Below are positions 311-64,000 of a DNA stretch of 64,000 bases, piece after piece. The first letter of the stretch is position 1. Each line of letters starts with the position of its first letter. The stretch lies in the NCBI GenBank assembly GCA_949152475.1, contig OX424563.1, positions 39,442,120 through 39,506,119 on the forward strand, written 5' to 3'. The translations under genes and the position numbers were made by a program. The DNA is from Terebella lapidaria. Taxonomy: Eukaryota; Annelida; Polychaeta; Terebellida; Terebellidae. The notes beneath the pieces were generated by a model. It had not been told where the DNA came from. It did no database searches and saw nothing but the letters and a program-made list of their open reading frames with translations.

Positions 311-339
311 CGGCGCTTGGCTCCCAGCGTCGAGTACAT

Positions 340-1008: not shown

Positions 1009-1049
1009 GGGCGAATCTTTAGCACCGAATATCTGTTTAAGTTCACCAG

Positions 1050-1730: not shown

Positions 1731-1747
1731 TTATTATTATTATTATC

Positions 1748-1792
<45 letters not shown>
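1731..1792. repeat. TTA / TTTA / T low-complexity tract
   Basis: The tract is a run of TTA repeats, then TTTA repeats, then about 18 T. Read on the minus strand it is an A-rich tail ending in AAAT and AAT repeats. It lies directly beside the CpG-rich stretch that follows. It could be a plain microsatellite or the tail of a minus-strand non-LTR retroposon; the sequence alone does not decide. Confidence 0.85.
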
Positions 1793-1794
<2 letters not shown>

Positions 1795-3341: not shown

Positions 3342-3503
3342 TTTTTACCCGTCGATGTGACGCTCCACCGTACGATGGACATGGGATGCTCCATCGTACG
3401 ATGGACATGTGATGCTCCACCATACGATGGACATGCTATGCTCCACCATACGATGGACATGTGACGCTCCACCGTACGATGGACATGAGACGCTCCACCG
3501 TAC

Positions 3504-3737
3504 GATCGACATGCGATGCTCCATTGTACGATGGACATGTGACGCTCCACTGTACAATGGACATGTGACGCTCCACCATACGATCGACATGCGATGCTCC
3601 ATTGTACGATGGACATGTGACGCTCCACTGTACAATGGACATGTGACGCTCCACCGTACGATCGACATGCGATGCTCCATTGTACGATGGACATCTAACG
3701 CTCCACCATACGATGGACATTAGATGCTCCACCGTAC
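3504..3737 (+). repeat. Three-unit (78-bp) higher-order repeat, about 3 copies
   Basis: A trio of unit types (GATCGACATGCGATG..., then one with CCATTGTAC, then one with ACTGTACAATGG) recurs with starts at 3,504, 3,582 and 3,660, exactly 78 bp apart. It is the clearest short-period higher-order structure near the left edge of the array. The third copy has begun to diverge (CATCTAACG in place of CATGTGACG). Confidence 0.8.
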
Positions 3738-5049
3738 GATGGACATGTGACGCTCCACCGAATGATGGACATTCGAGGTTCCACCGTAAGATGGACATGT
3801 GACGCTCCACCGTACGATAGACATGCGATGCTCCACCGTACGATGGACATGTGACGCTCCACTGTACAATGGACATGTGACGCTCCACTGTATGATGGAC
3901 ATGCGAGGCTCCACCGTACGATGGAAATGGGATGCTCCATCGTACGATGGACATGTGATGCTTCACCGTACGATCGACATGCGATGCTCCACCGTACGAT
4001 GGACATGCGACGCTCCACCGTACGATGGACATCTGACGCTCCACCTTCCGATGGACATCTGACGCTCCACCGTACGATCGGCATGCGATGCTCCACCGTA
4101 CGATGGACATGTGATGCTCCACCGTACGATGGACATCTGATGCTCCACCGTACGATGGACATGCTATGCTCCACCGCACGATGGACATGTGATGCTCCAC
4201 CGTACGATGGACATGGGACGCTCCACCGAATGATGGACATGCGAGGCCCCACCATAAGATGGACATGTGACGCTCCACCGTACGATGGACATGCGTCGCT
4301 CCACCGTACGATGGACATGTGACGCTCCACCGAAGGATGGACATGCGAGGCTCAACTGTAAGATGGACATGTTATGCTCCACCGTACGATGGACATGCGA
4401 TGCTCCATCGTACGATGGACATGGGATGCTCCACCGTATGATGGACATGTGACACTCCACTGTACGATGGATATGCGATGCTCCACCGTACGATGGACAT
4501 GTGATGTTCCACCGTACGATGGACATCTGACGCTCCACCGTAGGATGGACATGTGATGCTCCACCGTACGATGGACATGTGACGCTCCACCGTACGATGG
4601 ACATGGGATGCTCCATCGTACGATGGACATGTGATGCTCCACCATACGATGGACATGCTATGCTCCACCATACGATGGACATGTGACGCTCCACCGTACG
4701 ATGGACATGAGACGCTCCACCGTACGATCGACATGCGATGCTTCACAGTACGATTGACATGTGATGCTCCACTGTACGATGGACATCTAACGCTCCACCA
4801 TACGATGGACATGAGATGCTCCACCATACGATGGACATGTGACGCTCCACCGAATGATGGACATGCGAGGTTCCACCGTAAGATGGACATGTGACGCTCC
4901 ACCGTACGATAGACATGCGATGCTCCACCGTACGATGGACATGTGACGCTCCATTGTACAATGGACATGTGACGCTCCACCGTATGATGGACATGCAAGG
5001 CTCCACTGTACAATGGACATGTGACACTCCACCTTACGATGGACATGCG

Positions 5050-5415
5050 ACGCTCCACCGTACGATGGACATGCGACGCTCCATCGTATGATGGCCTAGC
5101 GACGCTCCATCGAAAGATGGACATGCAACTCTCCACTGTATGATGGACATGCGATGCTTTACTGTACAATGGACACGTGACGCTGCACCGTACGATGGAC
5201 ATGCGATGCTCCACTGCACGATGGACATATGACGCTCCACCGTACGATGGACATGCGACGCTCCATCGTATGATGGCCTAGCGACGCTCCATCGAAAGAT
5301 GGACATGCAACGCTCCACTGTATGATGGACATGCGATGCTTTACTGTACAATAGACACGTGATGCTGCACCGTACGATGGACATGCGATGCTCCACGTAC
5401 GACGGACATGTGACG
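5050..5415 (+). repeat. 182-bp (7-unit) tandem duplication
   Basis: The marker ATGGCCTAGCGACGCTCCAT followed by CGAAAGATGG occurs at about 5,091 and 5,273, exactly 182 bp apart, with matching units around it, including GCTTTACTGTACAAT and an ACGTGA variant. A further copy lies at about 6,726 (see the 1,453-bp offset block). Confidence 0.75.
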
Positions 5416-12667: not shown

Positions 12668-14463
12668 CATGGGACGCTCCACCGAATGATGGACATGTGA
12701 GGCTCCACCATAAGATGGACATGTGACGCTCCACCGTACGATGGACATGCGACGCTCCACCGTACGATGGACATGTGACGCTCCACCGAAGGATGGACAT
12801 GCGGGGCTCCACTGTAAGATGGACATGTTACGCTCCACCGTACGATGGACATGCGACGCTCCATCGTACGATGGACATGGGATGCTCCACCGTATGATGG
12901 ACATGTGACACTCCACTGTACGATGGATATGCGATGCTCCACCGTACGATGGACATGTGATGTTCCACCGTACGATGGACATCTGACGCTCCACCGTAGG
13001 ATGGACATGTGACGCTCCACCGTACGATGGACATGTGACGCTCCACCGTACGATGGACATGGGATGCTCCATCGTACGATGGACAGGTGATGCTCCGCCA
13101 TACGATGGACATGCTATGCTCCACCGTACGATGGACATTTGACGATCCACCGTACGATGGACATGAGACGCTCCACCGTACGATCGACATGCGATGCTTC
13201 ACAGTACGATTGACATGTGATGCTCCACTGTACGATGGACATCTAACGCTCCACCATACGATGGACATGAGATGCTCCACCGTACGATGGACATGTGATG
13301 CTCCACCGAATGATGGACATGCGAGGTTCCACCGTAAGATGGACATGTGACGCTCCACCTTACGATAGACATGCGATGCTCCACCGTACGATGAACATGT
13401 GATGATCCACTGTACAATGGACATGTGACGCTCCACCGTATGATGGACATGCAAGGCTCCACTGTACAATGGACATGTGACACTCCACCGTACGATGGAC
13501 ATGCGACGCTCTACCGTAGGATGGACTAGCGAAGATCCACCGTAAGATGGACATGTGACGCTCCACATGGGACGCTCCACCGAATGATGGACATGCGAGG
13601 CTCCACCATAAGATGGACATGTGACGCTCCACTGTACGATGGACATGCGACGCTCCACCGTACGATGGACATGTGACGCTCCACCGAAGGATGGACATGC
13701 GAGGCTCCACTGTAAGATGGACATGTTACGCTCCACCGTACGATGGACATGCGACGCTCCATCGTACGATGGACATGGGATGCTCCACCGTATGATGGAC
13801 ATGTGACACTAAACTGTACGATGGATATGCGATGCTCCATCGTACGATGGACATGTGATGTTCCACCGTACGATGGACATCTGACGCTCCACCGTAGGAT
13901 GGACATGTGACGCTCCACCGTACGATGGACATGTGACGCTCCACCGTACGATGGACATGGGATGCTCCATCGTACGATGAACAGGTGATGCTCCACCATA
14001 CGATGGACATGCTATGCTCCACCGTACGATGGACATTTGACGCTCCACCGTACGATGGACATGAGACGCTCCACCGTACGATCGACATGCGATGCTTCAC
14101 AGTACGATTGACATGTGATGCTCCACTGTACGATGGACATCTAACGCTCCACCATACGATGGACATGAGATGCTCCACCGTACGATGGACATGTGACGCT
14201 CCACCGAATGATGGACATGCGAGGTTCCACCGTAAGATGGACATGTGACGCTCCACCGTATGATAGACATGCGATGCTCCACCGTACGATGGACATGTGA
14301 TGCTCCACTGTACAATGGACATGTGACGCTCCACCGTATGATGGACATGCAAGGCTCCACTGTACAATGGACATGTGACACTCCACCGTACGATGGACAT
14401 GCGACGCTCTACCGTAGGATGGACTAGCGAAGCTCCACCGTAAGATGGACATGTGACGCTCCA
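12668..14463 (+). repeat. 898-bp tandem duplication with out-of-register junction
   Basis: Copy 1 is 12,668-13,565 and copy 2 is 13,566 to about 14,463. At the junction a unit reads GCTCCAC directly joined to ATGGGACGC, losing part of a unit, so 898 is 34 units plus 14 bp. The same junction is present at about 33,088, showing it predates the 19.5-kb duplication. Confidence 0.8.
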
Positions 14464-17399
14464 CCGTACGATGGACATCTGACGCTCCACCGTACGATGG
14501 ACATGCTATGCTCCAGCGTACGATAGACATGTGACGCTCCACCGTACGATGGACATGGGACGCTCCACCGTATAATGGACATGTGACGCTCCACCGTACG
14601 ATGGACATGAGACGCTCCACCGTATATGGACATGTGACGCTCCACCGTACGATGGACATGTGACGCTCCAACGAATGATGGACATGCGATGCTCCACCGT
14701 AGGATGGACATGTGACGCTCCACCGTACGATGGACATCTGACGCTCCACCGTACGATGGACATGCTATGCTCCAGCGTACGATGGACATGTGACGCTCCA
14801 CCGTACGATGGACATGGGACGCTCCACCGTATAATGGACATGTGACGCTCCACCGTACGATGGACATGAGATGCTCCACCGTATATGGACATGTGACGCT
14901 CCACCGTACGATGGACATGTGACGCTCCACCGAATGATGGACATGCGAGGCTCCACCGTAGGATGGACATGTGACGCTCCACCCTACGATGGACATGCGA
15001 CGCTCCATCGTACGACGGACTAGCGAAGCTCCACCGTAAGATGGACATGTGACGCTCCACCGTACGATGGACATGCGATGCTCCATCGTACGATGGACAT
15101 GGGATGCTCCACCGTATGATGGACATGTGACGCTCCACCGAATGATGGACATGCGATGCTCAATCGTACGATGGACATGGGATGCTCCACCGTATGATGG
15201 ACATGTGACGCTCCACCGTACGATGGACATGTGACGCTCCACTGTATGATGGACATGTGACGCTCCACCGTACGATGGACATGTGACGCTCCACTGTACG
15301 ATGGACATGCGACGCTCCACCGTACGATGGACATGCGATGCTCCACCGTACGATGGACTAGCGAAGCTCCACCGTAAGATGGACATTCGACGCTCCATCG
15401 TACGATGGACCCGTGACGCTCCACCGTACGATGGACATGCGACGCTCCATCGTACGATGGACTAGCGAAGCTCCACCGTAAGATGGACATGTGACGCTCC
15501 ACAGTACGATGGACATGGGACGCTCCATCATACGATGGACATGTGATGCTCCACCGTACAATCGGCATGCGATGCTCCACCGTACGATCGACATGTGATG
15601 CTCCACTGTACGATGGACATGTCACGCTCCACCGTACGATGGACATGGGACGCTCCAATGTACGATGGACATGCGACGCTCCACTGTACGATGGACAGGC
15701 GATGCTCCACTGTATGATGGACATGTGACACTCCACTGTATGATGGACATGCGAGGCTCCACCGTACGATGGACATGTGACGCTCCACCGAATGATGGAC
15801 ATGCGAGGCTCCACCGTAAGATGGACATGTGACGCTCCACCGTACGATGGACATGGGACGCTCCACCAAACGATTGACATGTGAGGCTCCACCGTAAGAT
15901 GGACATGTGACGCTCCACCATACGATGGACATGCGACGCTCCACCATATGATGGACATGTGACGCTCCACCATACGATGGACATCTGACACTCTACCGTA
16001 CGATGGACATGCTATGCTCCACCGTACGATGGACATGTGACGCTCCACCGTACGATGGACATGGGATGCTCCATCGTACGATGGACATGTGACGCTCCAC
16101 CCATCGATGGACATGCTATGCTCCACCGTATGATGGACATGTGACGCTCCACCGTACGATGGACATGGGACGCTCCACCGTAGGATGGACATGTGACGCT
16201 CCACCGTACGATGGACATGTGACGCTCCACCGTAAGATGGACCTGAGACGCTCCACTGTACGATGGACATGCGACGCTCCATCGTACAATGGACTAGCGA
16301 TGCTCCACCGTAAGATGGACATGTGACGCTCCACCGTACGATGGACATGCGACGCTCCTTCGTACGATGGACATGGGACGCTCCACCGTACGATCGACAT
16401 GCGATGCTCCACCGTACGATGGACATGTGATGCTCCACCGTACGATGGACATGGGACGCTCCAATGTATGATGGACATGTGACGCTCCACTGTACGATGG
16501 ACATGCGATGCTCCACTGTACGATGAACATGTGACGCTCCACCGTATGATGAACATGTGACGCTCCACCGTACGATGGACATGCGAGGCTCCACCGTACG
16601 ATGAACATGGGTGCTCCATCGTACGATGGACATGCGACGCTCCACCGTACGATGGACTAGCGAAGCTTCACCGTAAGATGGACATGCGACGCTCCATCGT
16701 ACGATGGACACGGGACGCTCCACCGTACGATGGACCTCTGACGCCCACCGTACGATGGACATGCTATGCTCCACCGTACGATGGACATGTGACGCTCCAC
16801 CGTACGATGGACATGGGGCGCTCCAATGTACGATGGACATGCGATGCTCCACTCTACGATGGACATGGGATGCTCCACCGTATAATGGACATGTGACGCT
16901 CCACCGTACGATGGACATGGGATGCTCCATCGTACGATGGACATGTGACGCTCCACCCATCGATGGACATGCTATGCTCCACCATACGATGGACATGTGA
17001 CTCTCCACCGTACGATGGACATGGGACGCTCCACCGTAGGATGGACATGTGACGCTCCACCGTACGATGGACATGGGACGCTCCACCGTAAGATGGACAT
17101 GCGACGCTCCACCGTACGATGGACTAGCGAAGCTCCACCATAAGATGGACATTCGACGCTCCATCGTACGATGGACACGTGACGCTCCACCGTACGATGG
17201 ACATGCGACGCTCCATCGTACAATGGACTAGCGAAGCTCCACCGTAAGATGGACATGTGACGCTCCACAGTACGATGGACATGGGACGCTCCACCGTACG
17301 ATGGACATGGGACGCTCCACCGTACGATGGACATGCAACGCTCCACTGTATGATGGACATGTGACGCTCCACCGTATGATGGACATGCGAGGCTCCACC

Positions 17400-19297
17400 G
17401 TACGATGGACATCTGATGCTCCACCGTACGATGGACATGCGATGCTCCACTGTACGATGGACATTTGACGCCCCACCGTATGATTGACATGCAAGGCTCC
17501 ATCGTACGATGGACATGCGATGCTCCACCGTACGATGGACATGCGACGCTTTATCGTACGATGGACATGTGACGCTCCACCGTACGATCGACATGCGATG
17601 CTTCACAGTACGATGGACATGTGATGCTCCACCGTACGATGGACATCTGACGCTCCACCGTGCGATGGACATGCGATGCTCCACGGTACGATGGACATGT
17701 GATGCCCCACCGTATGATTGACATGCAAGGCTCCATCGTACGATGGACATGCGATGCTCCACCGTACGATGGACATGCAACGCTTTATCGTACGATGGAC
17801 ATGTGACGCTCCACCGTACGATCGACATGCGATGCTTCACAGTACGATGGACATGTGATGCTCCACCATACGATGGACATCTCACGCTCCATCATACGAT
17901 GGACATGCGATGCTCCTCCGTACGATAGACATGTGATGCTCCATTGTACGATGGACATCTGACGCTCCACCGTACAATGGATATGCGATGCTCCACCGTA
18001 CGATGGACATGGGACGCTCCACCGTACGATGGACATGGGACGCTCCACCGTATGATGGACATGCGAGGCTTCACTGTACGATGGACATGTGATGCTCCAC
18101 AGTACGATGGACATGGGATGCTCCATCGTACGATGGACATGTGACGCTCCACCGTACGATGGACATGCGACGCTCCAATGCACGATGGACATGCGACGCT
18201 CCACTGTACGATGGACATGCAACGCTCCACTGTATGATGGACATGTGACGCTCCACCGTATGATGGACATGCGAGGCTCCACCGTACGATGGACATGGGA
18301 CGCTCCAAAGTATGATGGACATGTGATGCTCCACCGTACGATGGACATGTGATGCTCCACCGTACGATGACCATGCGAGGCTCCAATGTACGATGGACAT
18401 GTGACGCTCCACTGTACGATGGACATGCGACGCTCCATCGTATGATGGACATGTGATGCTCCACCGTACGATGGACATGCGACGCTTTATCGTATGATGG
18501 ACATGTGACGCTCCATCAATACGATCGACATGCGATGCTTCACAGTACGATGGACATCTCACGCTCCATCATACGATGGACATGCGATGCTCCACCGTAC
18601 GATAGACATGTGATGCTCAATTGTACGATGGACATGGGACGCTCCACCGTACGATGGACATGTGACACTCCACCGTATGATGGACATGCGAGGCTCCACG
18701 GTACGATGGACATGTGATGCTCCACCGTACGATGGACATGGGATGCTCCATCGTACGATGGACATGTGACGCTCCACCGTACGATCGACATGTTATGCTC
18801 AACCGTACGATGGACATGTGATGATCCATCGTACGATGGACTAGCGACGCTCCACCGTAAGATGGACATGCGACGCTCCACAGTACGATGGACATGTGAC
18901 GCTCCACTATACGATCGACATGCGATGCTCCATCGTACGATGGACATGTGATGCTCCACCATACGATGGACATCTGACGCTCCACCATACGATGGACATG
19001 CGACGATCCACTGTACGATGGACATGTGACGCTCCACTGTACGATGGACATGTGACACTCCATCGTACTATGGACTAGCGACGCTCCACCGTAAGATGGA
19101 CATGCGACGCTCCACGTACAATGGACATGTGACGCTCCACCGTACGATGGACATCCGACGTTCCACTGTATGATGGACATCCGATGCACCACCGTACGAT
19201 GGACATGCGACGTTCCATCGTACGATGGACATGCGATGCTCCACCGTACGATGGACATGGGATGATCCGCCGTATGATGGACATGTGACGCTCCACC
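17400..19297 (+). repeat. 1.9-kb block, first of four copies
   Basis: This block recurs at about 31,115-33,012 (offset 13,715), 36,896-38,792 (offset 19,496-19,495) and 47,187-49,085. Shared rare units include GCTTTATCGTACGATGG, GCTTCACAGTACG, ATCTCACGCTCC, GTGATGATCC, the shortened CTCCACGTACAATGG and GACATCCGACG. The 31.1-kb copy ends exactly where the 19.5-kb duplication restarts, so this block probably mediated that event. Confidence 0.75.
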
Positions 19298-19979
19298 GTA
19301 CGATGGACATGCGTTGCTCCACCGTGCGATGGACATGAGATGCTCCACCGTACGATAGACATCTGACGCTCCATTGTACGATAGACATGCGATGCCCCAC
19401 CGTACAATGGACATGCGGCGCTCCACTGTATGATGGACATGCGATGCTTTACTGTACAATGGACACGTGACGCTCCACCGTACGATGGACATGCGACGCT
19501 CCATCGTACGATGGACTAGCGAAGCTTCACCGTAAGATGGACATGTGATGCTCCACAGTGCGATGGACATGAGATGCTCCATCATACGATGGACATGTGA
19601 CGCTTCACCGTACGATCGACATGCGATGCTCCACCGTAGGATGGACATGTGACGCTCCACCGTACGATGGACATCTGACGCTGGACCGTACGATGGACAT
19701 GCTATGCTCCAGCGTACGATGGACATGTGACGCTCCACCGTACGATGGACATGGGATGCTCCACCGTATAATGGACATGTGACGCTCCACCGTACGATGG
19801 ACATGAGACGCTCCACCGTATATGGACATGTGACGCTCCACCGTACGATGGACATGTGACGCTCCACCGAGTGATGGACATGCGAGGCTCCACCGTAGGA
19901 TGGACATGTGACGCTCCACCATACGATGGACATGCGACGCTCCACCGTACGATGGACATGTGACGCTCCACCGTACGAT

Positions 19980-21075
19980 GGACATGTGACGCTCCACGGT
20001 ATGATGGACATGCAAAGCTCCACTCTACGATGGACATGTGACGCTCCATCGTACGATGGACTAGCGAAGCTCCACCGTAAGATGGACACGTGACGCTCCA
20101 CAGTACGATGGACATGGGACGCTCCATCATAAGATGAACATGTGATGCTCCACCGTACGATCGACATGCGATGCTCCACCGTACGATCGACATGTGATGC
20201 TCCACTGTACGATGGACATGTGATGCTCCACCGTACGATGGACATGGGACGCTCCAATGTACGATGGACATGCAACGCTCCACTGTATGATGGACATGTG
20301 ACGCTCCACCGTATGATGGACATGTGAGGCTCCACCGTACGATGGACATGGGACGCTCCACCGTACGATGGACATGCAACGCTCCACTGTATGATGGACA
20401 TGTGACGCTCCACCGTATGATGGACATGCGAGGCTCCACCGTACGATGGACATCTGATGCTCCACCGTACGATAGACATGCGATGCTCCACCGTACGATG
20501 GACATGTGACGCTCCACCGTACGATGGACATGTGATGCTCCACGGTATGATGGACATGCAAAGCTCCACTCTACGATGGACATGTGACGCTCCATCGTAC
20601 GATGGACTAGCGAAGCTCCACCGTAAGATGGACACGTGACGCTCCACAGTACGATGGACATGGGACGCTCCATCATACGATGAACATGTGATGCTCCACC
20701 GTACGATCGACATGCGATGCTCCACCGTACGATCGACATGTGATGCTCCACTGTACGATGGACATGTGATGCTCCACCGTACGATGGACATGGGACGCTC
20801 CAATGTACGATAGACATGCAATGCTCCACTGTATGATGGACATGTGACGCTCCACCGTATGATGGACATGTGAGACTCCACCGTACGATGGACATGGGAC
20901 GCTCCACCGTACGATGGACATGCAACGCTCCACTGTATGATGGACATGTGACGCTCCACCGTATGATGGACATGCGAGGCTCCACCGTACGATGGACATG
21001 GGACGCTCCACCGTATGATGGACATGTGATGCTCCACCGTACGATGGAAATGTGACGCTCCACCGTACGATGGAC
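19980..21075 (+). repeat. 546-bp (21-unit) tandem duplication
   Basis: Two copies sit 546 bp apart, about 19,980-20,527 and 20,528-21,075. They share GCAAAGCTCCACTCTACG, a CTAGCGAAGC unit, ACGTGACGCTCCACAG and TGAACATGTGATGC. 546 is exactly 21 units. The pair is also present in copy B (about 39.5-40.6 kb), so it predates the 19.5-kb duplication. Confidence 0.75.
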
Positions 21076-21279
21076 ATGCGAGGCTCCACTGTACGATGAA
21101 CATGTGACGCTCCACTGTACGATGGACATGCGACGCTCCATCGTATGATGGACATGTGATGCTCCACCGTACGATGGACATGCGACGCTTTATCGTACGA
21201 TGGACATGTGACGCTCCACCGTACGATCGACATGCGATGCTTCACAGTACGATGGACATCTCACGCTCCATCATACGAT

Positions 21280-21660
21280 GGACATGCGATGCTCCACCGT
21301 ACGATGGACATGTGACGCTCCACCGTACGATGGACATGCTATGCTCCACCGTACGATGGACATGTGACGCTCCACCGTACGATGGACATGGGATGCTCCA
21401 CCGTACGATGGACATGTGACGCTCCACCGTACGATGGACATGTGACGCTCCACCGTACGATGGACATGGGAAGCTCCACCGTACGATGGACATGTGATGC
21501 TCCACCGTACGATGGACATGGGATGCTCCACCGTACGATGGACATGTGACAATCCACCGTACGATGGACATCTGACACTCCTCCGTACGATGGACATGGG
21601 ATGCTCCACGGTACGATGGACATGTGACGCTCCACCGTACGATGGACATGCGACGCTCAA
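21280..21660 (+). repeat. Highly homogeneous sub-block
   Basis: About 14 consecutive units here are close to the consensus, with CCACCGTACGATGGACATG in nearly every unit, and differ mainly in the variable core. Matching homogeneous blocks lie at about 40,775-41,155, 50,630-51,060 and 56,035-56,465. This contrasts with the variant-rich neighbours and suggests more recent local amplification. Confidence 0.6.
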
Positions 21661-22963
21661 TCGTACGATGGACTAGCGACACTCCACCGTAAGATGGACA
21701 TGCGACGCTCCATCGTACGATGGACATGCGACGCTCCATCGCAGGATGGACATGCGACGCTCCACCGTACGAAGGACATGCGATGCTCCACCGTACTATG
21801 GACATGCGACGCTCCATCAGACGATAGACAAGTGACACTCCACTGTAAGATGGACATGCGAGGCTCCACCGTTCGATGGACATGTGACGCTCCACCGTAT
21901 GATGGACATGTGACGCTCCACCGTACGATGGACATGTGACGCACCACTGTATGATGGACATGCGATGCTTTACTGTACAATGGACACGTTGCGCTCAACC
22001 GTAAGATGGACATGCGATGCTCCACAGTACGATGGACATGGGACGCTCCATCATACGATGGACATGTGACGCTCCACCGTACGATCGACATGCGATGCTC
22101 CACCGTACGATCGACATGTGATGCTCCACCGTTCGATCGACATGTGATGCTCCACCGTACGATGGACATGTGACGCTCCACCGTACGATCGACATGTGAT
22201 GCTCCACCGTACGATGGACATGTGACAATCCACCGTACGATGGACATCTGACACTCCTCCGTACGATGGACATGGGAAGCTCCACCGTACGATGGACATG
22301 TGACGCTCCACCGTACGATGGACATGCGACGCTCAATCGTACGATGGACTAGCGACACTCCACCGTAAGATGGACATGCGACGCTCCACCGTACGATGGA
22401 CATGCGACGCTCCATCGCAGGATGGACATGCGACGCTCCACCGTACGAAGGACATGCGATGCTCCACCGTACTATGGACATGCGACGCTCCATCGTACGA
22501 TGGACATGCGACGCTCCATCGTATGATGGACATGTGATGCTCCACCGTACGATGGACATGCGACGCTTTATCGTACGATGGACATGTGACGCTCCACCGT
22601 ACGATCGACATGCGATGCTTCACAGTACGATGGACATCTCACGCTCCATCATACGATGGACATGCGATGCTCCACCGTACGATGGACATGTGACGCTCCA
22701 CCGTACGATGGACATGCTATGCTCCACCATACGATGGACATGTGACGCTCCACCGTACGATGGACATGCGACGCTCAAATGTACGATGGACATGCGACGC
22801 TCAAATGTACGATGGACATAAGACGCTCCACCGTACGATGGCCTAGTGACGCTCCAGCGTAAGATGGACATGTGACGCTCCACTGTACGATGGACATGTG
22901 ATGCTCAGCTGTATGATGGACATGCGACGCTCCATCGTACGATGGACTAGCGATGCTCCAACG

Positions 22964-25900
22964 TAAGATGGACATGTGATGCTCCACCGTACGATGGACA
23001 TGCGACGCTCCATCGCAGGATGGACATGCGACGCTCCACCGTACGAAGGACATGCGATGCTCCACCGTACTATGGACATGCGACGCTCCATCATACGATA
23101 GACATGTGACACTCCACTGTAAGATGGACATGCGAGGCTCCACCGTACGATGGACATGTGACGCTCCACCGTATGATGGACATCTGACGCTCCACCGTAC
23201 GATGGACATGCTATGCTCCACTGTACGATGGACATGTGATGCTCCACCGTACGATGGACATGCTATGCTCCACCGTACGATGGACATGTGACGCTCCACC
23301 GTACGATGGACATGGGATGCTCCACCGTATGATGGACATGCGATGCTCCACTGTACGATGGACATGTGACGCTCCACCATATGATGGACATGTGAGGCTC
23401 CACTGTACGATGGACATGTGACGCTCCACCGTACGATGGACATGGGATGCTCCATCGTACGATGGACATGTGACGCTCCACCGTACGATCGACATGCGAT
23501 GCTCCACCGTACGATGGACATGTGATGCTCCACCGTACGATGGACATCTGACGCTCCACCGTACGATGGACATGCTATGCTCCACCGTACGATGGACATG
23601 TGACGCTCCACCGTACGATGGACATGCTATGCTCCACCGTACGATGGACATGTGACGCTCCACCGTACGATGGACATGGGACGCTCCACCGTCCGATGGA
23701 CATGTGACGCTCCACCGTACGATGGACATGTGACGCTCCACCATACGATGGACATGGGAGGCTCCACCGTACGATGGACATGTGACAATCCACCGTACGA
23801 TGGACATCTGACGCTCCTCTGTACGATGAACATGCGACGCTCCACCGTACGATGGACTTGTGACGCTCCACCGTACGATGGACATGCGACACTCCATCGT
23901 ACGATGGACTAGCGACACTCCACCGTAAGATGGACATGTGACGCTCCACCGTACGATGGACATGCGACGCTCCATCGTACGATGGACATGGGATGCTCTA
24001 TCGTATGATGGACTATCGATGCTCCACCGTAAGATGGACATGTGACGCCCCACCGTATGATGGACATGCGACGCTCCATCGTACGATGGACATGGGATGC
24101 TCCACCGTACGATTTACATGTGATGCTCCACCGTACGATGGACATGCGACGCTCCACCGTACGATTTACATGCGATGCTCCACCGTACGATGGACCTGTG
24201 ATGCTCCACCGTACGATGGACATCTGACGCTCCACCGTATGATGGACATGCAAGGCTCCACTGTACAATGGACATGTGACGCTCCACCGTACGATGGACA
24301 TGCGACGCTCCACCGTATGATGGACATGCAACGCTCCATCGTACGATGGACATGTGACGCTCCACCATACGATGGACATCTGACGCTCCACCGTACGATG
24401 GACATGCGATGCTCCAATGTACGATGGACATGTGACGCTCCACCGTATGATTGACATGCAAGGCTCCACCGTAAAATGGACATGTGACGCTCCACCATAC
24501 GATGGACATGCGACGCTCCACCATACGATGGACATATGACGCTCCACTGTACGATGGACATGTGACACTCCACCGTATGATGGACATGCAAGGCTCCACT
24601 GTACAATGGACATGTGACGCTCCACCGTACGATGGACATGGGACGCTCCAACGTATGATGGACATGCAACGCTCCATCGTACGATGGACATGTGACGCTC
24701 CACCATACGATGGACATCTGACGCTCCACCGTACGATGGACATGCGATGCTCCACTGTACGATGGACATGTGACGCCCCACCGTATGATTGACATGCAAG
24801 GCTCCACTGTACGATGGACATGTGACGCTCCAACGTATGATTGACATGCAAGGCTACACCGTAAAATGGACATGTGACGCTCCACCATACGATGGACATG
24901 CGACGCTCCATCGTACGATGGACATGAGATGCTCCACCGTACGATGGACATCTGATGCTCCACCATACGATGGACATGTGACACTCCGCTGTACGATGGA
25001 CATGTGACGCTCCACCATATGATGGACATGTGACACTCCGCTGTACGATGGACATGTGACGCTCCACCATATGATGGACATGCGATGCTCCACCATACAA
25101 TGGACATGCGACGCTCAAATGTACGATGGACATATGACGCTCCACCGTACGATGGACATGAGACGCTCCATCGGATGATGGCCTAGTGACGCTCCAGCGT
25201 AAGATGGACATGCGATGCTCCACCGTACGATGGACATGTGATGCTCCGCTGTACGATGGACATGCGACGCTCCATCGTACGATGGACTAGCGATGCTCCA
25301 ACGTAAGATGGACATGTGATGCTCCACCGTACGATGGACTAGCGATGCTCCACCGTAAGATGGACATGTGACGCTCCACAGTACGATGGACATGGGACGC
25401 TCCATCATACGATGGACATGTGACGCTCCACCGTACGATCGACATGCGATGCTCCACCGTACGATGGACATGTGATGCTCCACCGTACGATGGACATGTG
25501 ATGCTCCACGGTACGATGGACATGTGACGCTCCACCGTACGATGGACATGGGACGCTCCAATGTACGATGGACATGCAACGCTCCACTGTATGATGGACA
25601 CATAAGATGGACATGTGATGCTCCACCGTACGATGGACATGCGACGCTCCATCGCAGGATGGACATGCGACGCTCCACCGTACGAAGGACATGCGATGCT
25701 CCACCGTACTATGGACATGCGACGCTCCATCATACGATAGACATGTGACACTCCACTGTAAGATGGACATGCGAGGCTCCACCGTACGATGGACATGTGA
25801 CGCTCCACCGTATGATGGACATCTGACGCTCCACCGTACGATGGACATGCTATGCTCCACTGTACGATGGACATGTGATGCTCCACCGTACGATGGACAT

Positions 25901-37200: not shown

Positions 37201-40200
37201 CCCCACCGTAGGATTGACATGCAAGGCTCCATCGTACGATGGACATGCGATGCTCCACCGTACGATGGACATGCAACGCTTTATCGTACGATGGACATGT
37301 GACGCTCCACCGTACGATCGACATGCGATGCTTCACAGTACGATGGACATGTGATGCTCCACCATACGATGGACATCTCACGCTCCATCATACGATGGAC
37401 ATGCGATGCTCCTCCGTACGATAGACATGTGATGCTCCATTGTACGATGGACATCTGACGCTCCACCGTACAATGGATATGCGATGCTCCACCGTACGAT
37501 GGACATGGGACGCTCCACCGTACGATGGACATGGGACGCTCCACCGTATGATGGACATGCGAGGCTTCACTGTACGATGGACATGTGATGCTCCACCGTA
37601 CGATGGACATGGGATGCTCCATCGTACGATGGACATGTGACGCTCCACCGTACGATGGACATGCGACGCTCCAATGCACGATGGACATGCGACGCTCCAC
37701 TGTACGATGGACATGCAACGCTCCACTGTATGATGGACATGTGACGCTCCACCGTATGATGGACATGCGAGGCTCCACCGTACGATGGACATGGGACGCT
37801 CCAAAGTATGATGGACATGTGATGCTCCACCGTACGATGGACATGTGATGCTCCACCGTACGATGACCATGCGAGGCTCCACTGTACGATGGACATGTGA
37901 CGCTCCACTGTACGATGGACATGCGACGCTCCATCGTATGATGGACATGTGATGCTCCACCGTACGATGGACATGCGACGCTTTATCGTATGATGGACAT
38001 GTGACGCTCCATCGTACGATCGACATGCGATGCTTCACAGTACGATGGACATCTCACGCTCCATCATACGATGGACATGCGATGCTCCACCGTACGATAG
38101 ACATGTGATGCTCAATTGTACGATGGACATGGGACGCTCCACCGTACGATGGACATGTGACACTCCACCGTATGATGGACATGCGAGGCTCCACGGTACG
38201 ATGGACATGTGATGCTCCACCGTACGATGGACATGGGATGCTCCATCGTACGATGGACATGTGACGCTCCACCGTACGATCGACATGTTATGCTCCACCG
38301 TACGATGGACATGTGATGATCCATCGTACGATGGACTAGCGACGCTCCACCGTAAGATGGACATGCGACACTCCACAGTACGATGGACATGTGACGCTCC
38401 ACCATACGATCGACATGCGATGCTCCATCGTACGATGGACATGTGATGCTCCACCATACGATGGACATCTGACGCTCCACCATACGATGGACATGCGACG
38501 ATCCACTGTACGATGGACATGTGACGCTCCACTGTACGATGGACATGTGACACTCCATCGTACTATGGACTAGCGACGCTCCACCGTAAGATGGACATGC
38601 GACGCTCCACGTACAATGGACATGTGACGCTCCACCGTACGATGGACATCCGACGTTCCACTGTATGATGGACATCCGATGCACCACCGTACGATGGACA
38701 TGCGACGTTCCATCGTACGATGGACATGCGATGCTCCACCGTACGATGGACATGGGATGATCCGCCGTATGATGGACATGTGACGCTCCACCGTACGATG
38801 GACATGCGTTGCTCCACCGTGCGATGGACATGAGATGCTCCACCGTACGATAGACATCTGACGCTCCATTGTACGATAGACATGCGATGCCCCACCGTAC
38901 AATGGACATGCGACGCTCCACTGTATGATGGACATGCGATGCTTTACTGTACAATGGACACGTGACGCTCCACCGTACGATGGACATGCGACGCTCCATC
39001 GTACGATGGACTAGCGAAGCTTCACCGTAAGATGGACATGTGATGCTCCACAGTGCGATGGACATGAGATGCTCCATCATACGATGGACATGTGACGCTT
39101 CACCGTACGATCGACATGCGATGCTCCACCGTAGGATGGACATGTGACGCTCCACCGTACGATGGACATCTGACGCTGGACCGTACGATGGACATGCTAT
39201 GCTCCAGCGTACGATGGACATGTGACGCTCCACCGTACGATGGACATGGGATGCTCCACCGTATAATGGACATGTGACGCTCCACCGTACGATGGACATG
39301 AGACGCTCCACCGTATATGGACATGTGACGCTCCACCGTACGATGGACATGTGACGCTCCACCGAGTGATGGACATGCGAGGCTCCACCGTAGGATGGAC
39401 ATGTGACGCTCCACCATACGATGGACATGCGACGCTCCACCGTACGATGGACATGTGACGCTCCACCGTACGATGGACATGTGACGCTCCACGGTATGAT
39501 GGACATGCAAAGCTCCACTCTACGATGGACATGTGACGCTCCATCGTACGATGGACTAGCGAAGCTCCACCGTAAGATGGACACGTGACGCTCCACAGTA
39601 CGATGGACATGGGACGCTCCATCATAAGATGAACATGTGATGCTCCACCGTACGATCGACATGCGATGCTCCACCGTACGATCGACATGTGATGCTCCAC
39701 TGTACGATGGACATGTGATGCTCCACCGTACGATGGACATGGGACGCTCCAATGTACGATGGACATGCAACGCTCCACTGTATGATGGACATGTGACGCT
39801 CCACCGTATGATGGACATGTGAGGCTCCACCGTACGATGGACATGGGACGCTCCACCGTACGATGGACATGCAACGCTCCACTGTATGATGGACATGTGA
39901 CGCTCCACCGTATGATGGACATGCGAGGCTCCACCGAACGATGGACATCTGATGCTCCACCGTACGATAGACATGCGATGCTCCACCGTACGATGGACAT
40001 GTGACGTTCCACCGTACGATGGACATGTGATGCTCCACGGTATGATGGACATGCAAAGCTCCACTCTACGATGGACATGTGACGCTCCATCGTACGATGG
40101 ACTAGCGAAGCTCCACCGTAAGATGGACACGTGACGCTCCACAGTACGATGGACATGGGACGCTCCATCATACGATGAACATGTGATGCTCCACCGTACG

Positions 40201-41938
40201 ATCGACATGCGATGCTCCACCGTACGATCGACATGTGATGCTCCACTGTACGATGGACATGTGATGCTCCACCGTACGATGGACATGGGACGCTCCAATG
40301 TACGATAGACATGCAATGCTCCACTGTATGATGGACATGTGACGCTCCACCGTATGATGGACATGTGAGACTCCACCGTACGATGGACATGGGACGCTCC
40401 ACCGTATGATGGACATGCAACGCTCCACTGTATGATGGACATGTGACGCTCCACCGTATGATGGACATGCGAGGCTCCACCGTACGATGGACATGGGACG
40501 CTCCACCGTATGATGGACATGTGATGCTCCACCGTACGATGGAAATGTGACGCTCCACCGTACGATGGACATGCGAGGCTCCACTGTACGATGAACATGT
40601 GACGCTCCACTGTACGATGGACATGCGGCGCTCCATCGTATGATGGACATGTGATGCTCCACCGTACGATGGACATGCGACGCTTTATCGTACGATGGAC
40701 ATGTGACGCTCCACCGTACGATCGACATGCGATGCTTCACAGTACGATGGACATCTCACGCTCCATCATACGATGGACATGCGATGCTCCACCGTACGAT
40801 GGACATGTGACGCTCCACCGTACGATGGACATGCTATGCTCCACCGTACGATGGACATGTGACGCTCCACCGTACGATGGACATGGGATGCTCCACCGTA
40901 CGATGGACATGTGACGCTCCACCGTACGATGGACATGTGACGCTCCACCGTACGATGGACATGGGAAGCTCCACCGTACGATGGACATGTGATGTTCCAC
41001 CGTACGATGGACATGGGATGCTCCACCGTACGATGGACATGTGACAATCCACCGTACGATGGACATCTGACACTCCTCCGTACGATGGACATGGGATGCT
41101 CCACGGTACGATGGACATGTGACGCTCCACCGTACGATGGACATGCGACGCTCAATCGTACGATGGACTAGCGACACTCCACCGTAAGATGGACATGCGA
41201 CGCTCCATCGTACGATGGACATGCGACGCTCCATCGCAGGATGGACATGCGACGCTCCACCGTACGAAGGACATGCGATGCTCCACCGTACTATGGACAT
41301 GCGACGCTCCATCAGACGATAGACATGTGACACTCCACTGTAAGATGGACATGCGAGGCTCCACCGTTCGATGGACATGTGACGCTCCACCGTATGATGG
41401 ACATGTGACGCTCCACCGTACGATGGACATGTGACGCACCACTGTATGATGGACATGCGATGCTTTACTGTACAATGGACACGTTACGCTCAACCGTAAG
41501 ATGGACATGCGATGCTCCACAGTACGATGGACATGGGACGCTCCATCATACGATGGACATGTGACGCTCCACCGTACGATCGACATGCGATGCTCCACCG
41601 TACGATCGACATGTGATGCTCCACCGTTCGATCGACATGTGATGCTCCACCGTACGATGGACATGTGACGCTCCACCGTACGATCGACATGTGATGCTCC
41701 ACCGTACGATGGACATGTGACAATCCACCGTACGATGGACATCTGACACTCCTCCGTGCGATGGACATGGGATGCTCCACCGTACGATGGACATGTGACG
41801 CTCCACCGTACGATGGACATGCGACGCTCAATCGTACGATGGACTAGCGACACTCCACCGTAAGATGGACATGCGACGCTCCACCGTACGATGGACATGC
41901 GACGCTCCATCGCAGGATGGACATGCGACGCTCCACCG

Positions 41939-42354
41939 TACGAAGGACATGCGATGCTCCACCGTACTATGGACATGCGACGCTCCATCGTACGATGGAC
42001 ATGTGACGCTCCAAAGTACGATGGACATCTGACGCTCCACCGTACGATGGCCTAGTGACGCTCCAGCGTAAGATGGACATGTGACGCTCCACTGTACGAT
42101 GGACATGTGATGCTCAGCTGTATGATGGACATGCGACGCTCCACCGTACGAAGGACATGCGATGCTCCACCGTACTATGGACATGCGACGCTCCATCGTA
42201 CGATGGACATGTGACGCTCCAAAGTACGATGGACATCTGACGCTCCTCCGTACGATGGACATGCGACGCTCAAATGTACGATGGACATGCGACGCTCAAA
42301 TGTACGATGGACATAAGACGCTCCACCTAACGATGGCCTAGTGACGCTCCAGCG
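41939..42354 (+). repeat. 208-bp (8-unit) tandem duplication
   Basis: Starting at the rare CGTACGAAGGAC unit (about 41,939), the next eight units include CGTACTATGG, CCAAAGTACG, ATGGCCTAGTGACG and GCTCAGCTGTATG. They begin again at about 42,147, exactly 208 bp later. The partner region in copy A (22,509-22,755) has different content. Confidence 0.65.
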
Positions 42355-45253
42355 TAAGATGGACATGTGACGCTCCACTGTACGATGGACATGTGATGCT
42401 CAGCTGTATGATGGACATGCGACGCTCCATCGTACGATGGACTAGCGATGCTCCAACGTAAGATGGACATGTGATGCTCCACCGTACGATGGACATGCGA
42501 CGCTCCATCGCAGGATGGACATGCGACGCTCCACCGTACGAAGGACATGCGATGCTCCACCGTACTATGGACATGCGACGCTCCATCATACGATAGACAT
42601 GTGACACTCCACTGTAAGATGGACATGCGAGGCTCCACCGTACGATGGACATGTGACGCTCCACCGTATGATGGACATCTGACGCTCCACCGTACGATGG
42701 ACATGCTATGCTCCACTGTACGATGGACATGTGATGCTCCACCGTACGATGGACATGCTATGCTCCACCGTACGATGGACATGTGACGCTCCACCGTACG
42801 ATGGACATGGGATGCTCCACCGTAGGATGGACATGCGATGCTCCACTGTACGATGGACATGTGACGCTCCACCATATGATGGACATGTGAGGCTCCACTG
42901 TACGATGGACATGTGACGCTCCACCGTACGATGGACATGGGATGCTCCATCGTACGATGGACATGTGACGCTCCACCGTACGATCGACATGCGATGCTCC
43001 ACCGTACGATGGACATGGGACGCTCCAACGTATGATGGACATGCAACGCTCCATCGTACGATGGACATGTGACGCTCCACCATACGATGGACATCTGACG
43101 CTCCACCGTACGATGGACATGCGATGCTCCACTGTACGATGGACATGTGACGCCCCACCGTATGATTGACATGCAAGGCTCCACTGTACGATGGACATGT
43201 GACGCTCCAACGTATGATTGACATGCAAGGCTACACCGTAAAATGGACATGTGACGCTCCACCATACGATGGACATGCGACGCTCCATCGTACGATGGAC
43301 ATGAGATGCTCCACCGTACGATGGACATCTGATGCTCCACCATACGATGGACATGTGACACTCCGCTGTACGATGGACATGTGACGCTCCACCATATGAT
43401 GGACATGTGACACTCTGCTGTACGATGGACATGTGACGCTCCACCATATGATGGACATGCGATGCTCCACCATACAATGGACATGCGACGCTCAAATGTA
43501 CGATGGACATATGACGCTCCACCGTACGATGGACATGAGACGCTCCATCGGATGATGGCCTAGTGACGCTCCAGCGTAAGATGGACATGCGATGCTCCAC
43601 CGTACGATGGACATGTGATGCTCCGCTGTACGATGGACATGCGACGCTCCATCGTACGATGGACTAGCGATGCTCCAACGTAAGATGGACATGTGATGCT
43701 CCACCGTACGATGGACTAGCGATGCTCCACCGTAAGATGGACATGTGACGCTCCACAGTACGATGGACATGGGACGCTCCATCATACGATGGACATGTGA
43801 CGCTCCACCGTACGATCGACATGCGATGCTCCACCGTACGATGGACATGTGATGCTCCACGGTACGATGGACATGTGACACTCCACCGTACGATGGACAT
43901 GGGACGCTCCAATGTACGATGGACATGCAACGCTCCACTGTATGATGGACATGCGATGCTCCACTGTACGATTAACATGTGACGCTCCACCGTATGATGG
44001 ACATGCGAGGCTCCACCGTACGATGGACATGGGATGCTCCTCCGTATGATGGACATGTGATGCTCCACCGTACGATGGACATGTGACGCTCCACCGTACG
44101 ATGGACATGCGAATCTCAACTGTACGATGGACATGTGACGCTCCACTGTACTATGGACATGCGACGCTCCATCGTATGATGGACATGTGATGCTCCACCG
44201 TACGATGGACATGCGACGCTTTATCGTACGATGGACATGTGACGCTCCACCGTACGATCGACATGCGATGCTTCACAGTACGATGGACATGTGATGCTCC
44301 ACCGTACGATGGACATCTCATGCTCCATCATACGATGGACATGCGATGCTCCACCGTACGATAGACATGTGATGCTCCATTGTACGATGGACATCTGACG
44401 CTCCACCGTACAATGGATATGCGATGCTCCACCGTACGATGGACATGGGACGCTCCACCGTATGGTGGACAGCGACACTCCACTGTACGATGGACATGTG
44501 ATGCTCCACCGTACGATGGACATGCGATACTCCACCATACGATGGACATGTGACGCTCCACTGTACGATGGACATGTGACGCTCCACCGTATGATGGACA
44601 TGCAAGGCTCCACTGTACAATGGACATGTGACGCTCCACCGTACGATGGACATGGGACGCTCCACCGTATAATGGACATGTGATGCTCCACCGTACGATG
44701 GACATGTGACGCTCCTCCATATGATGGACATGCGAGGCTCCACCGTAAGATGGACATGTGACGCTCCACCATACGATGGACATGCGACGCTCCATCGTAC
44801 GATGGACATGTGATGCTCAACCGTACGATGGACATGTGATGCTCCACCGTATGATGGACATGCAAGGCTCCACGGTACAATGGACATGTGACGCTCCAAC
44901 GCACGATGGACATGCGATGCTCCATCGTACGATGGAATGTGACGCTCCACCGTACGATGGACATGCGATGCTCCACTGTACGATGGACATGTGACGCTCC
45001 ACCGTACGATTGACATGCGAGGCTCCACTGTACAATGGACATCTGATGCTCCACCGTACGATGGACATGCGATGCTCCACTGTACGATGGAAATGTGACG
45101 CTCCACCGAACGATGGACATGCAACGCTCCAGCGTACGATGGGCTAGCGACGCTCCACCGTAAGATGGACATGCGACGCTCCATGTACGATGGACATGTG
45201 ACGCTCCACCGTACGATGGACATGCGACGCTCCACTGTACGATGGACATGCGA

Positions 45254-49100: not shown

Positions 49101-49498
49101 TGCTCCACCGTGCGATGGACATGAGATGCTCCACCGTACGATAGACATCTGACGCTCCATTGTACGATAGACATGCGATGCCCCACCGTACAATGGACAT
49201 GCGACGCTCCACTGTATGATGGATATGCGATGCTTTACTGTACAATGGACACGTGACGCTCCACCGTACGATGGACATGCGACGCTCCATCGTACGATGG
49301 ACTAGCGAAGCTCCACCGTAAGATGGACATGTGATGCTCCACAGTGCGATGGACATGAGATGCTCCATCATACGATGGACATGTGACGCTTCACCGTACG
49401 ATCGACATGCGATGCTCCACCATAGGATGGACATGTGACGCTCCACCGTACGATGGACATCTGACGCTGGACCGTACGATGGACATGCTATGCTCCAG

Positions 49499-60800: not shown

Positions 60801-62262
60801 CACCGTACGATGGACATGGGATGCTCCACCGTAGAATGGACATGTGACGCTCCACCGTACGATGGACATGAGACGCTCCACCGTATATGGACATGTGATG
60901 CTCCACCGTACGATGGACATGTGACGCTCCACCGAGTGAAGGACATGCGAGGCTCCACCGTAGGATGGACATGTGACGCTCCACCATACGATGGACATGC
61001 GATGCTCCATCGTACGATGGACATGGGATGCTCAACCGTATGATGGACATGTGACGCTCCACCGTACGATGGACATGCGTTGCTCCACTGTACGATGGAC
61101 ATGTGATGCTCCACCGTACGATGGACATCTGATGCTCCACCGTACGATAGACATGCGATGCTCCACCGTACGATGGATATGTGACGCTCCACCGTACGAT
61201 GGACATGTGACGCTCCACGGTATGATGGACATGCAAAGCTCCACTCTACGATGGACATGTGACGCTCCATCGTACGATGGACTAGCGAAGCTCCACCGTA
61301 AGATGGACACGTGACGCTCCACAGTACGATGGACATGGGACGCTCCATCATACGATGAACATGTGATGCTCCACCGTACGATCGACATGCAATGCTCCAC
61401 CGTACGATCGACATGTGATGCTCCACTGTACGATGGACATGTGATGCTCCACCGTACGATGGACATGTGACGCTCCACCGTACGATGGACATGTGACGCA
61501 CCACTGTATGATGGACATGCGATGCTTTACTGTACAATGGACACGTTACGCTCAACCGTAAGATGGACATGCGATGCTCCACAGTACGATGGACATGGGA
61601 CGCTCCATCATACGATGGACATGTGACGCTCCACCGTACGATCGAGATGCGATGCTCCACCGTACGATCGACATGTGATGCTCCACCGTACGATCGACAT
61701 GTGATGCTCCACCGTACGATGGACATGTGATGCTACACCATACGATGGACATGTAACGCTCCACTGTATGATGGACATACGATGCTTTACTGTACAATGG
61801 ACACGTTACGCTCAACCGTACGATGGACATGGGACGTACCATCATATGATGGACATGTGACGCTCCACCGTACGATCGACATGCGATGCTCCACCGTATG
61901 ATCGACATGTGATGCTCCACCCTACGATGGACATGGGATCCTCCATCGTACGATGGACATGTGATGCTCCACCGTACGATGGACATGCGATGCTCCACCG
62001 TACGATGGACATGCGATGCTCCACCGTAAGATGGACATGTGACGCCCCACCGTATGATGGACATGCGACGCTCCATCGTACGATAGACATGGGATGCTCC
62101 ACCGTACGATGGACATGTGACGCTCCACCGTAGGATAGACATGTGATGCTCCATTGTACGATGGACATCTGACGCTCCACCGTACAATGGATATGCGATG
62201 CTCCACCGTACGATGGACATGGGACGCTCCACCGTACAATGGACATGTGACGCTCCACCGTA
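52505..62262 (+). repeat. Duplicated segments at 7.7-kb offset (52,505-54,569 and about 60,220-62,262)
   Basis: Offset 7,693 holds over 53,140-54,569. It is 7,718 before an extra GGGCATCTGACGCTGG unit near 53,040, and a one-base loss follows near 53,132. Shared rare units include GATTTAC-type units, the CTGACGCTGGACC unit, GTAGAATGG, GAGATGCGATG, GATGCTACACC and GTAGGATAGAC. Confidence 0.75.
58882..61505 (+). repeat. 1.3-kb tandem duplication (58,882-60,180 and 60,181-61,505)
   Basis: Copy 1 is 1,299 bp and copy 2 is 1,325 bp. They differ by one 26-bp unit (CCGTATGATGGACATGTGACG, present only in copy 2 near 60,335-60,360) and very few substitutions. Both share the one-base-short CCGTATATGG unit and the odd GAGTGAAGG unit. 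The low divergence marks this as one of the youngest events in the window. Confidence 0.88.
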
Positions 62263-62899
62263 TGATGGACATGCGAGGCTCCACTGTACGATGGACATGT
62301 GATGCTCCACCGTACGATGGACATGTGATGCTCCACCGTACGATGGACATGTGATGCTCCACCGTACGATGGACATGCGACGCTATATCGTGCGATGGAC
62401 ATGGGATGCTCTATCGTATGATGGACTATCGATGCTCCACCGTAAGATGGACATGTGACGCCCCACCGTATGATGGACATGCGACGCTCCATCGTATGAT
62501 GGACATGGGATGCTCCACCGTATGATGGACATGTGATGCTCCATCGTACGATTTACATGCGATGCTCCACCGTACAAAGGACCTGGATGCTCCACCGTAC
62601 GATGGACATCTGACGCTCCACCGTACGATAGACATGCGATGCTCCACCATACGATGGACCTGTGACGCTCCACTGTACGATGGACATGTGACGCTCCACC
62701 GTATGATGGACATGCAAGGCTCCACTGTACAATGGACATGTGAAGCTCCACCGTACGATGGACATGCGAAGCTCCACCGTATGATGGACATGCAAACGCT
62801 CCATCGTACGATGGACATGTGACGCTCCACCATACGATGGACATCTGACGCTCCACCATACGATGGACATGCGAAGCTCCACTGTACGATGGACATGTG

Positions 62900-63680
62900 A
62901 TGCCCCACCGTATGATTGACATGCAAGGCTCCACTGTACGATGGCCATGTGACGCTCCACCGTATGATTGACATGCAAGGCTCCACCGTAAAATGGACAT
63001 GTGACGCTCCACCATACGATGGACCTGCGACGCTCCATCGTACGATGGACATGGGATGCTCCACCGTACGATGGACATCTGATGCTCCACCATACGATGG
63101 ACATGTGACACTCTGCTGTACAATGGACATGTGACGCTCCACCATATGATGGACATGTGACACTCCGCTGTACGATGGACATGTGACGCTCCACCATATG
63201 ATGGACATGCGATGCTCCACCATACAATGGACATGCGACGCTCCATCGTACGATGGACATGTGACGCTCCACCGTACGATGGACATCTGACGCTCCTCCG
63301 TACGACGGACATGCGACGCTCAAATGTACGATGGACATATGACGCTCCACCGTACGATGGACATGCGATGCTCCACTGTACGATGGACATGTGACGCCCC
63401 ACCGTATGATTGACATGCAAGGCTCCACCGTAAAATGGACATGTGACGCTCCACCATACGATGGACATGCGACCCTCCATCGTACGATGGACATGGGATG
63501 CTCCACCGTACGATGGACATCTGATGCTCCACCATACGATGGACATGTGACACTCCGCTGTACAATGGACATGTGACGCTCCACCATATGATGGACATGT
63601 GACACTCCGCTGTACAATGGACATGTGACGCTCCACCATATGATGGACATGCGATGCTCCACCATACAATGGACATGCGA
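62900..63680 (+). repeat. Second 442-bp-offset duplication near the right edge
   Basis: The series GATTGACATGCAAGGCTCC, GTAAAATGG, GGGATGCTCC and CACTC(C/T)GCTGTAC recurs 442 bp later (for example 63,134 versus 63,576). The surrounding 62.4-64.0 kb is a diverged relative of 24.0-25.3, 26.6-28.0 and 43.1-43.7 kb. The array continues past the window end. Confidence 0.65.
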
Positions 63681-64000
63681 CGCTCTATCGTACGATGGAC
63701 ATGTGACGCTCCACCGTACGATGGACATCTGATGCTCCTCCGTACGATGGACATGCGACGCTCAAATGTACGATGGACATATGACGCTCCACCGTACGAT
63801 GGACATGAGACGCTACATCGGATGATGGCCTAGTGACGCTCCAGCGTAAGATGGACATGCGACGCTCCTCCGTATGATGTACATGTGATGCTCCGCTGTA
63901 CAATGGACATGCGACGCTCCATCGTACGATGGACTAGCGATGCTCCAACGTAAGATGGACATGTGATGCTCCACCGTACGATGGACTAGCGATGCTCCAC

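Follow-up and report, generated by a model that had tools for sequence, protein, structure and literature searches.

A 26-bp satellite array with recurrent borders in the annelid Terebella lapidaria, probably part of heterochromatin-type blocks found on a few of its chromosomes

What kind of sequence is formed when a unit of only 26 bp, in the length class of minisatellites, is repeated head-to-tail through nearly all of a 64,000-bp stretch of an annelid chromosome? The stretch in question, referred to here as the window, covers C9:39442120-39506119, which is part of chromosome 9 of Terebella lapidaria in assembly wtTerLapi1.1; the whole window was analysed together with samples from elsewhere in the genome. 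The array that fills it probably belongs to a non-coding satellite family whose megabase blocks, of heterochromatin type, occupy a few T. lapidaria chromosomes, and is most likely heterochromatin filler expanded by recombination. The copy of the genome analysed comprises 761.6 Mb in 438 contigs, in which C9 is chromosome 9 and, by length, C11 corresponds to chromosome 10, C12 to chromosome 11 and C13 to chromosome 12. It shows small differences from the published assembly of 765.2 Mb in 576 scaffolds (PMC11364976): C8 is 43.07 Mb long here and 43.11 Mb in the published version, and the start of C9 reads N.

Tandem Repeats Finder (TRF) recovers a single array from 3355 to 64000, in rows with periods of 26, 52 and 78, and two parsers count 2,318 and 2,314 units, all head-to-tail; the original prediction of a 26-bp array filling the window is thereby borne out, with its start at 3355 instead of 3353. 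Spacing is exactly 26 bp in 2,276 of 2,317 intervals between successive unit starts, and the largest such gap is at most 53 bp, which means that no insert longer than about one unit lies in the window. When orientation is scored per 26-bp bin, the forward strand is better in 2,330 of 2,331 bins, one bin is tied and none favours the reverse, so the earlier statement that reversed units and mobile elements are absent is true inside the window, while the wider block has both. A periodicity arising by chance is dismissed because self-identity at lag 26 is 82.8%, whereas among lags below 300 other than multiples of 26 the best reaches about 35%. The 2,317 units fall into 465 distinct sequence types with a mean identity of 90% to the consensus, and Rfam gave no match above the gathering score in the window or in six other loci. 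The organization is that of satellite DNA, a tandem non-coding repeat in head-to-tail order.

The non-coding status has to be weighed, as minus-strand open frames in the array reach 874 codons and would be the mark of a gene for a repetitive protein. These frames are a consequence of a consensus without a minus-strand stop: random reordering of the units (30 shuffles) yields longest minus-strand frames of 601-1,226 codons, and the long frames are spread over all three minus frames. A minus-strand protein gene is given practically no credence. As unit permutation gives frames as long as those observed, a coding array was ruled out, in agreement with the earlier reading of the window as free of genes.

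The internal similarity of the array speaks to how it grew. Identity between units stays within 0.837-0.849 at lags 1-40, with a mean of 0.845 over lags 1-1,199; adjacent units (83.7% alike) are no more similar than distant ones (mean 84.5%), and the peak of 0.875 at lag 746 corresponds to the duplication of a segment of about 10 kb. Compared in 400-bp windows, 20 of 26 windows of the two copies exceed 97% identity (mean 99.7% over those 20) and the other 6 lie at 80-96%. When the array is divided into 116 windows of 520 bp, 67 of them are matched at 99% or more by another part of the array, and identical units follow one another up to 68 times in a row, whereas 20 permutations of the units gave runs no longer than 3. 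Duplicated segments in the array thus range from about 1 to 10 kb, at identities of up to about 99.7%. No regular higher-order-repeat period is seen over lags 1-1,199, where identity is nearly flat and the duplications are irregular; of the layered higher-order structure proposed earlier, the large segment duplications are thus retained and a regular multi-unit period is not. Growth via copying of kilobase segments fits these observations, and neither single-unit slippage nor a regular higher-order repeat does. Mechanistically, expansion and turnover of the array would proceed by unequal exchange or by break-induced copying, acting on kilobase segments and on blocks that include a border, with slippage of single units presumably not the growth route.

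Repeats are a classic source of assembly error, and a short array that was expanded or mis-joined by the assembler would also look long and self-similar; two stretches at the C9:38.29-Mb edge do contain 194 and 63 N. However, the other block loci checked have no N where counted, and the longest ungapped exact repeat, at 1,790 bp, is well under the average HiFi read length, which is about 9.4 kb. With 465 unit types among 2,317 units, reads can be placed. The HiFi data amount to 22.32 Gb from 2.37 million reads, and the consensus quality value (QV) of 60 given in the consulted part of the genome note (PMC11364976) likewise argues against an artefact, which is scarcely credible as the origin of the array.

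Beyond the window, where 39,506,120-39,516,119 was covered whole and the remainder to the right edge by samples, the array continues to a total span of about 95.6 kb. One insert of about 1.07 kb lies near C9:39,532,630, with further ones possible between samples; Pfam returned no meaningful family in it, and by its tail and C-terminus it is a putative 5'-truncated long interspersed nuclear element (LINE). On the scale of the chromosome, the array belongs to a satellite block at 38.29-41.29 Mb (3 Mb) near one scaffold end of chromosome 9. Exact pattern searches place a second block at 2.70-4.58 Mb on chromosome 3 (about 1.9 Mb) and a small locus at 39.86-39.88 Mb on chromosome 4 (about 0.03 Mb), and a block on chromosome 11 (C12) occupies about 3.56-3.79 Mb (about 0.2 Mb). 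An exact 78-mer of the unit has 24 matches in total, 8 on C3, 11 on C9 as far as 41.29 Mb and 5 on C12 at 3.58-3.79 Mb, and is rare enough to miss the small C4 locus; among contigs after C9, this rare 78-mer finds the unit only on C12, besides the C9 block and C3. For three other patterns, about the first 100 places were listed, of 902 (51-mer), 357 (52-mer) and 2,295 matches, and the unit is not among the matches listed for the exact 51-mer on C1 and C2 or for the 52-mer on C1, C2 and C5-C8. DNA similarity searches give lower bounds, as one of them did not list the window itself.

The unit is present in 12 of 15 samples from C9:38.29-41.29 Mb and in all 4 samples between 3.2 and 4.59 Mb on C3, from which its total can be put roughly at 4 to 5 Mb, or about 0.6% of the genome. 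Long arrays at several loci, as is characteristic of satellite DNA, are therefore found in the blocks sampled. The wider chromosome-9 block holds the unit in both orientations, with minus-strand stretches at 39.82-39.84 and 40.00-40.37 Mb, and contains mobile elements and other satellites: a 158-bp satellite within and beside the block, 61-bp and 17-bp satellites just left of 38.29 Mb, and a 75-bp satellite at the scaffold end. The position of the window within this 3-Mb multi-satellite block supports the earlier view of the array as satellite-scale and perhaps a heterochromatin-type block, while the label of megasatellite, also suggested, does not suit a 26-bp unit.

A centromeric satellite, in which the unit would carry CENP-A on the chromosomes that have it, is a very unlikely identity for these blocks. 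The megabase 26-bp blocks do adjoin a 157/158-bp satellite, near nucleosome length, on chromosomes 9 and 3, and the unit is near-palindromic, a feature named for various satellites in the part of a review consulted (PMC8122249). However, 26 bp is far from nucleosome length, exact k-mers are without listing on C1, C2 and C5-C8, and the 78-mer occurs only on C3, C9 and C12. Presence on all chromosomes, which is usual but not universal for centromeric satellites, is thus not what the exact k-mers display; the proposal of a centromeric repeat of all chromosomes finds no support in the 51- and 52-mer searches, and the unit is unlikely to be a repeat that every centromere has in common. Chromosomes 6, 12 and 16 (C6, C13 and C17) have relatives of the 158-bp family at their scaffold ends as well, which makes this family the better centromere candidate of the two. 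These relatives, about 93% alike at the ends, stand at the C13 start, the C17 start and the C6 end, and another is seen at C3:4650001; the family is a candidate for a common centromeric repeat.

A variant that is compatible with the satellite explanation concerns location, and holds that the blocks of chromosomes 9 and 11 are subtelomeric or terminal heterochromatin and not pericentromeric. The unit comes within 0.25 Mb of the chromosome-9 scaffold end and lies at 3.56-3.79 Mb on chromosome 11, and the C9 and C12 scaffolds both terminate in one 75-bp satellite, the copies of which are 96% alike and point the same way relative to the end. Against this, the unit on chromosome 4 is 8 Mb from the end, and a similar 75-bp satellite is interstitial there (62 copies), so that the C9 and C12 scaffold ends may be assembly breaks in a satellite block. 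A 62-base pattern of the 75-bp satellite has 31 matches, all at the C9 end, the 96%-alike C12 copy having escaped it, and a 150-base pattern joining two 75-bp variants has a single match. A terminal location is possible, but rather less likely than not.

The edges of the arrays are recurrent. Five left edges, at which an element joins the array, were found on chromosome 9 (38.290, 39.445, 39.916 and 40.467 Mb, the second being that of the window) and on chromosome 4 (39.880 Mb), and in all five the 330-bp element end is 100% identical and the array begins with the same 166 bp or more. Past this common start, the five arrays diverge with shifts consistent with unit gain and loss. The edge at 39.916 Mb likewise carries the long terminal repeat (LTR) retrotransposon seen in the window, and the 3,716 bp surrounding its left LTR have 5 differences from the window copy, from which it follows that a large duplication postdates the insertion. 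At 40.467 Mb, the element is flanked on one side by about 30 reversed units and on the other by a forward array. On the right, at about C9:39,541,066, the 26-bp array gives way to a 339-bp repeat and then to the 158-bp satellite; the junction between the 26-bp and 339-bp repeats is common to C9 and C4, the two right edges read, with either the 158-bp or the 75-bp satellite to the right of the 339-bp repeat in these two copies. On C4, read on the strand of the array, the 26-bp array is followed by the 339-bp repeat, a 226/339-bp remainder, the 75-bp satellite, a piece of the element and again the 26-bp array. Matching borders are thus found at places on chromosome 9 as much as 2 Mb from one another and also on chromosome 4, and from these few edges the block looks like a series of repeated cassettes in which the borders are fixed and the filling is variable.

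Since an element stands at each of these left edges, it may be asked whether the array arose inside the element and is carried by it, as the TIR-220 array is by Tetris in Drosophila virilis. The five junctions that join the dispersed element to the array were obtained with a query holding the element. No 26-bp unit (at least 20 of 26 positions matching) occurs in the 4,152-bp body of the element or in four loci with 5 dispersed copies, and the flanks of the 5 dispersed copies examined are unrelated. The shared left junction is better explained by later co-duplication than by an element-borne origin, for which there is little room. An array carried by a mobile element was accordingly rejected, the unit being no part of the dispersed element in the body and the 5 dispersed copies.

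The features of the window are collected in Table 1. The interior of the LTR retrotransposon has matches above Pfam cut-offs to zf-CCHC and Asp_protease_2, and integrase fragments (rve and Integrase_H2C2, above the Pfam cut-off) lie farther left in the same element. CTCG flanks the retrotransposon on both sides, and a single CTCG is found at the unoccupied site. A full copy of the dispersed element, of about 4.2 kb, is present at C9:40463208-40467369. It contains 138-bp internal subrepeats and, near its right end, six copies of a GGCGCTTACGACCTTCTGGC-like motif; it is unclassified, has a variable right terminus and a longest reading frame of at most 96 codons, and shows no long inverted ends.

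Table 1. Features of the window (position 1 is C9:39442120)
Feature	Positions	Strand	Remarks
26-bp satellite array	3355..64000	+	consensus CTCCACCGTACGATGGACATGTGACG; continues to about C9:39541066
~10-kb segment, first copy	13490..23600	+	recurs 19.5 kb downstream
~10-kb segment, second copy	33012..43100	+	direct scan
Longest ungapped exact repeat, 1,790 bp, first copy	23694..25483	+	second copy 2,639 bp downstream
LTR retrotransposon interior (whole element C9:39437483-39445143)	1..2308	-	gag zinc-knuckle and aspartyl-protease fragments
716-bp LTR	2309..3024	.	partner LTR C9:39437483-39438198, 0/716 differences
Right-hand 330 bp of dispersed ~4.2-kb repeat element	3025..3354	+	interrupted by LTR retrotransposon; 97-100% copies on other chromosomes

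The decay of the unit bears on the state of the chromatin. Mean transition frequency is 0.145 at the 6 consensus CpG positions and 0.038 at the 9 other C/G positions, and the same comparison over 446 distinct units gives 0.177 and 0.053. Because most decay of the consensus is through CpG transitions, the pattern suggests CpG methylation of the unit in the germ line. Several points weigh against the interpretation as a heterochromatin-type satellite with fixed borders. The CpG observed/expected ratio of the array is 1.21, which is no depletion, and positions outside CpG are also variable, namely position 22 (T/C/G, before G) and position 6 (transition 0.15). The unit contains the near-palindrome TCCAYCGTACGATGGA, which might bind a protein. 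The heterochromatin-type assignment itself is drawn from sequence features, these being the neighbouring satellites and the CpG-biased transitions. All five left edges came to light through queries that contained the dispersed element, so that element-free edges would escape, and the right border is known from two edges. In analyzing the palindrome further, covariation between its arms was found to be weak, at 0.003-0.028 bit with a median of 0.011 for all position pairs. The role of the satellite would be that of generic heterochromatin, or none, and a sequence-specific function would be unnecessary.

Human pericentromeric satellites form long arrays. The units of satellites I, II and III are given as 17/25 bp, 10-80 bp and 5/10 bp, respectively, in the part of the review consulted (PMC8122249), and the T. 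lapidaria family, compared by description only, resembles them in its short unit, the human satellites being pericentric on a subset of chromosomes. Minisatellites, or variable number tandem repeats (VNTRs), are alike in the class of unit length; however, their arrays are described as 0.5-30 kb long and located in euchromatic regions (PMC8122249, in part), whereas the T. lapidaria array is about 96 kb long and lies within a megabase block. TIR-220 of D. virilis is a satellite array closely tied to the transposable element Tetris according to the section consulted (PMC4079207), and is similar in having an element beside the array but differs in that the T. lapidaria unit lies outside the element. 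The family is thus of an ordinary satellite kind, and is unusual mainly in combining a short unit with great size and with edges common to different chromosomes. No published description of this satellite was found in the topic and species-name literature, in which papers on the species were mostly judged by title, passages from three of them are free of the word 'satellite' and the main text of the genome note is without the word 'repeat' (PMC11364976, in part), and among the papers listed by topic searches there was no satellite study for the annelids.

The ends of the scaffolds were surveyed by sampling 500-600 bp at each of 32 ends, 31 of which are readable, as the C9 start is N. A satellite of about 70 bp stands at 9 of the 31, always in one orientation to the end (both ends of C2, the ends of C3 and C13, and the starts of C5, C6, C11, C15 and C16); the 75-bp satellite is found at 3 (C9 end, C12 start and C5 end), alike in orientation, the 157/158-bp family at 3 in mixed orientation, and other sequence at the remaining 16. 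Neither a short telomere-like repeat nor the 26-bp unit was seen at any of the 31 readable ends. At the starts of C2, C5 and C16, the 70-bp array is still found 5 kb in but no longer 20 kb in, and at those of C11 and C15 it has disappeared at 10 kb. Exact (TTAGGG)12 has no occurrence in the assembly analysed, and a search for the telomerase RNA-binding domain gave no match, as was also the case for its controls. Judged by sequence, the ends with the 70-bp satellite are possibly a non-canonical telomere, or else subtelomeres whose true ends are unassembled; the long terminal repeats of Chironomus telomeres (PMC10767889, in part) are comparable only to these scaffold-end satellites. A broader proposal would have the chromosomes end in complex satellites instead of TTAGGG, with the satellite blocks of chromosomes 9 and 11, among them the one that holds this array, as terminal domains that recombination maintains and exchanges between non-homologues as border-containing cassettes, and it is regarded as unlikely.

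Other sequences were encountered in passing. At the C8 scaffold end there is a tandem repeat of about 142 bp in 2 copies, which presumably resembles U6 small nuclear RNA, Rfam being without a match above the gathering score. The mitochondrial gene order, apparently nad3-nad2-cox1-cox2-cox3, and the use of the invertebrate code suggest an annelid. Contig C438 looks like the annelid mitochondrion, and C417 has a divergent split COX1 frame, in which TGA is read through, together with a nad1-like frame; we take C417 to resemble a ciliate mitochondrion, perhaps of a symbiont or contaminant.

With regard to the biology of the species, were the pattern at the chromosome ends to hold, T. lapidaria would be a possible case of an animal that lacks the usual telomere repeat. 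As to the 26-bp family, it offers a short-unit annelid satellite assembled in long reads, and its shared borders, together with internal copies that are about 99.7% alike, may allow the growth of short-unit satellites and their movement between chromosomes to be traced.

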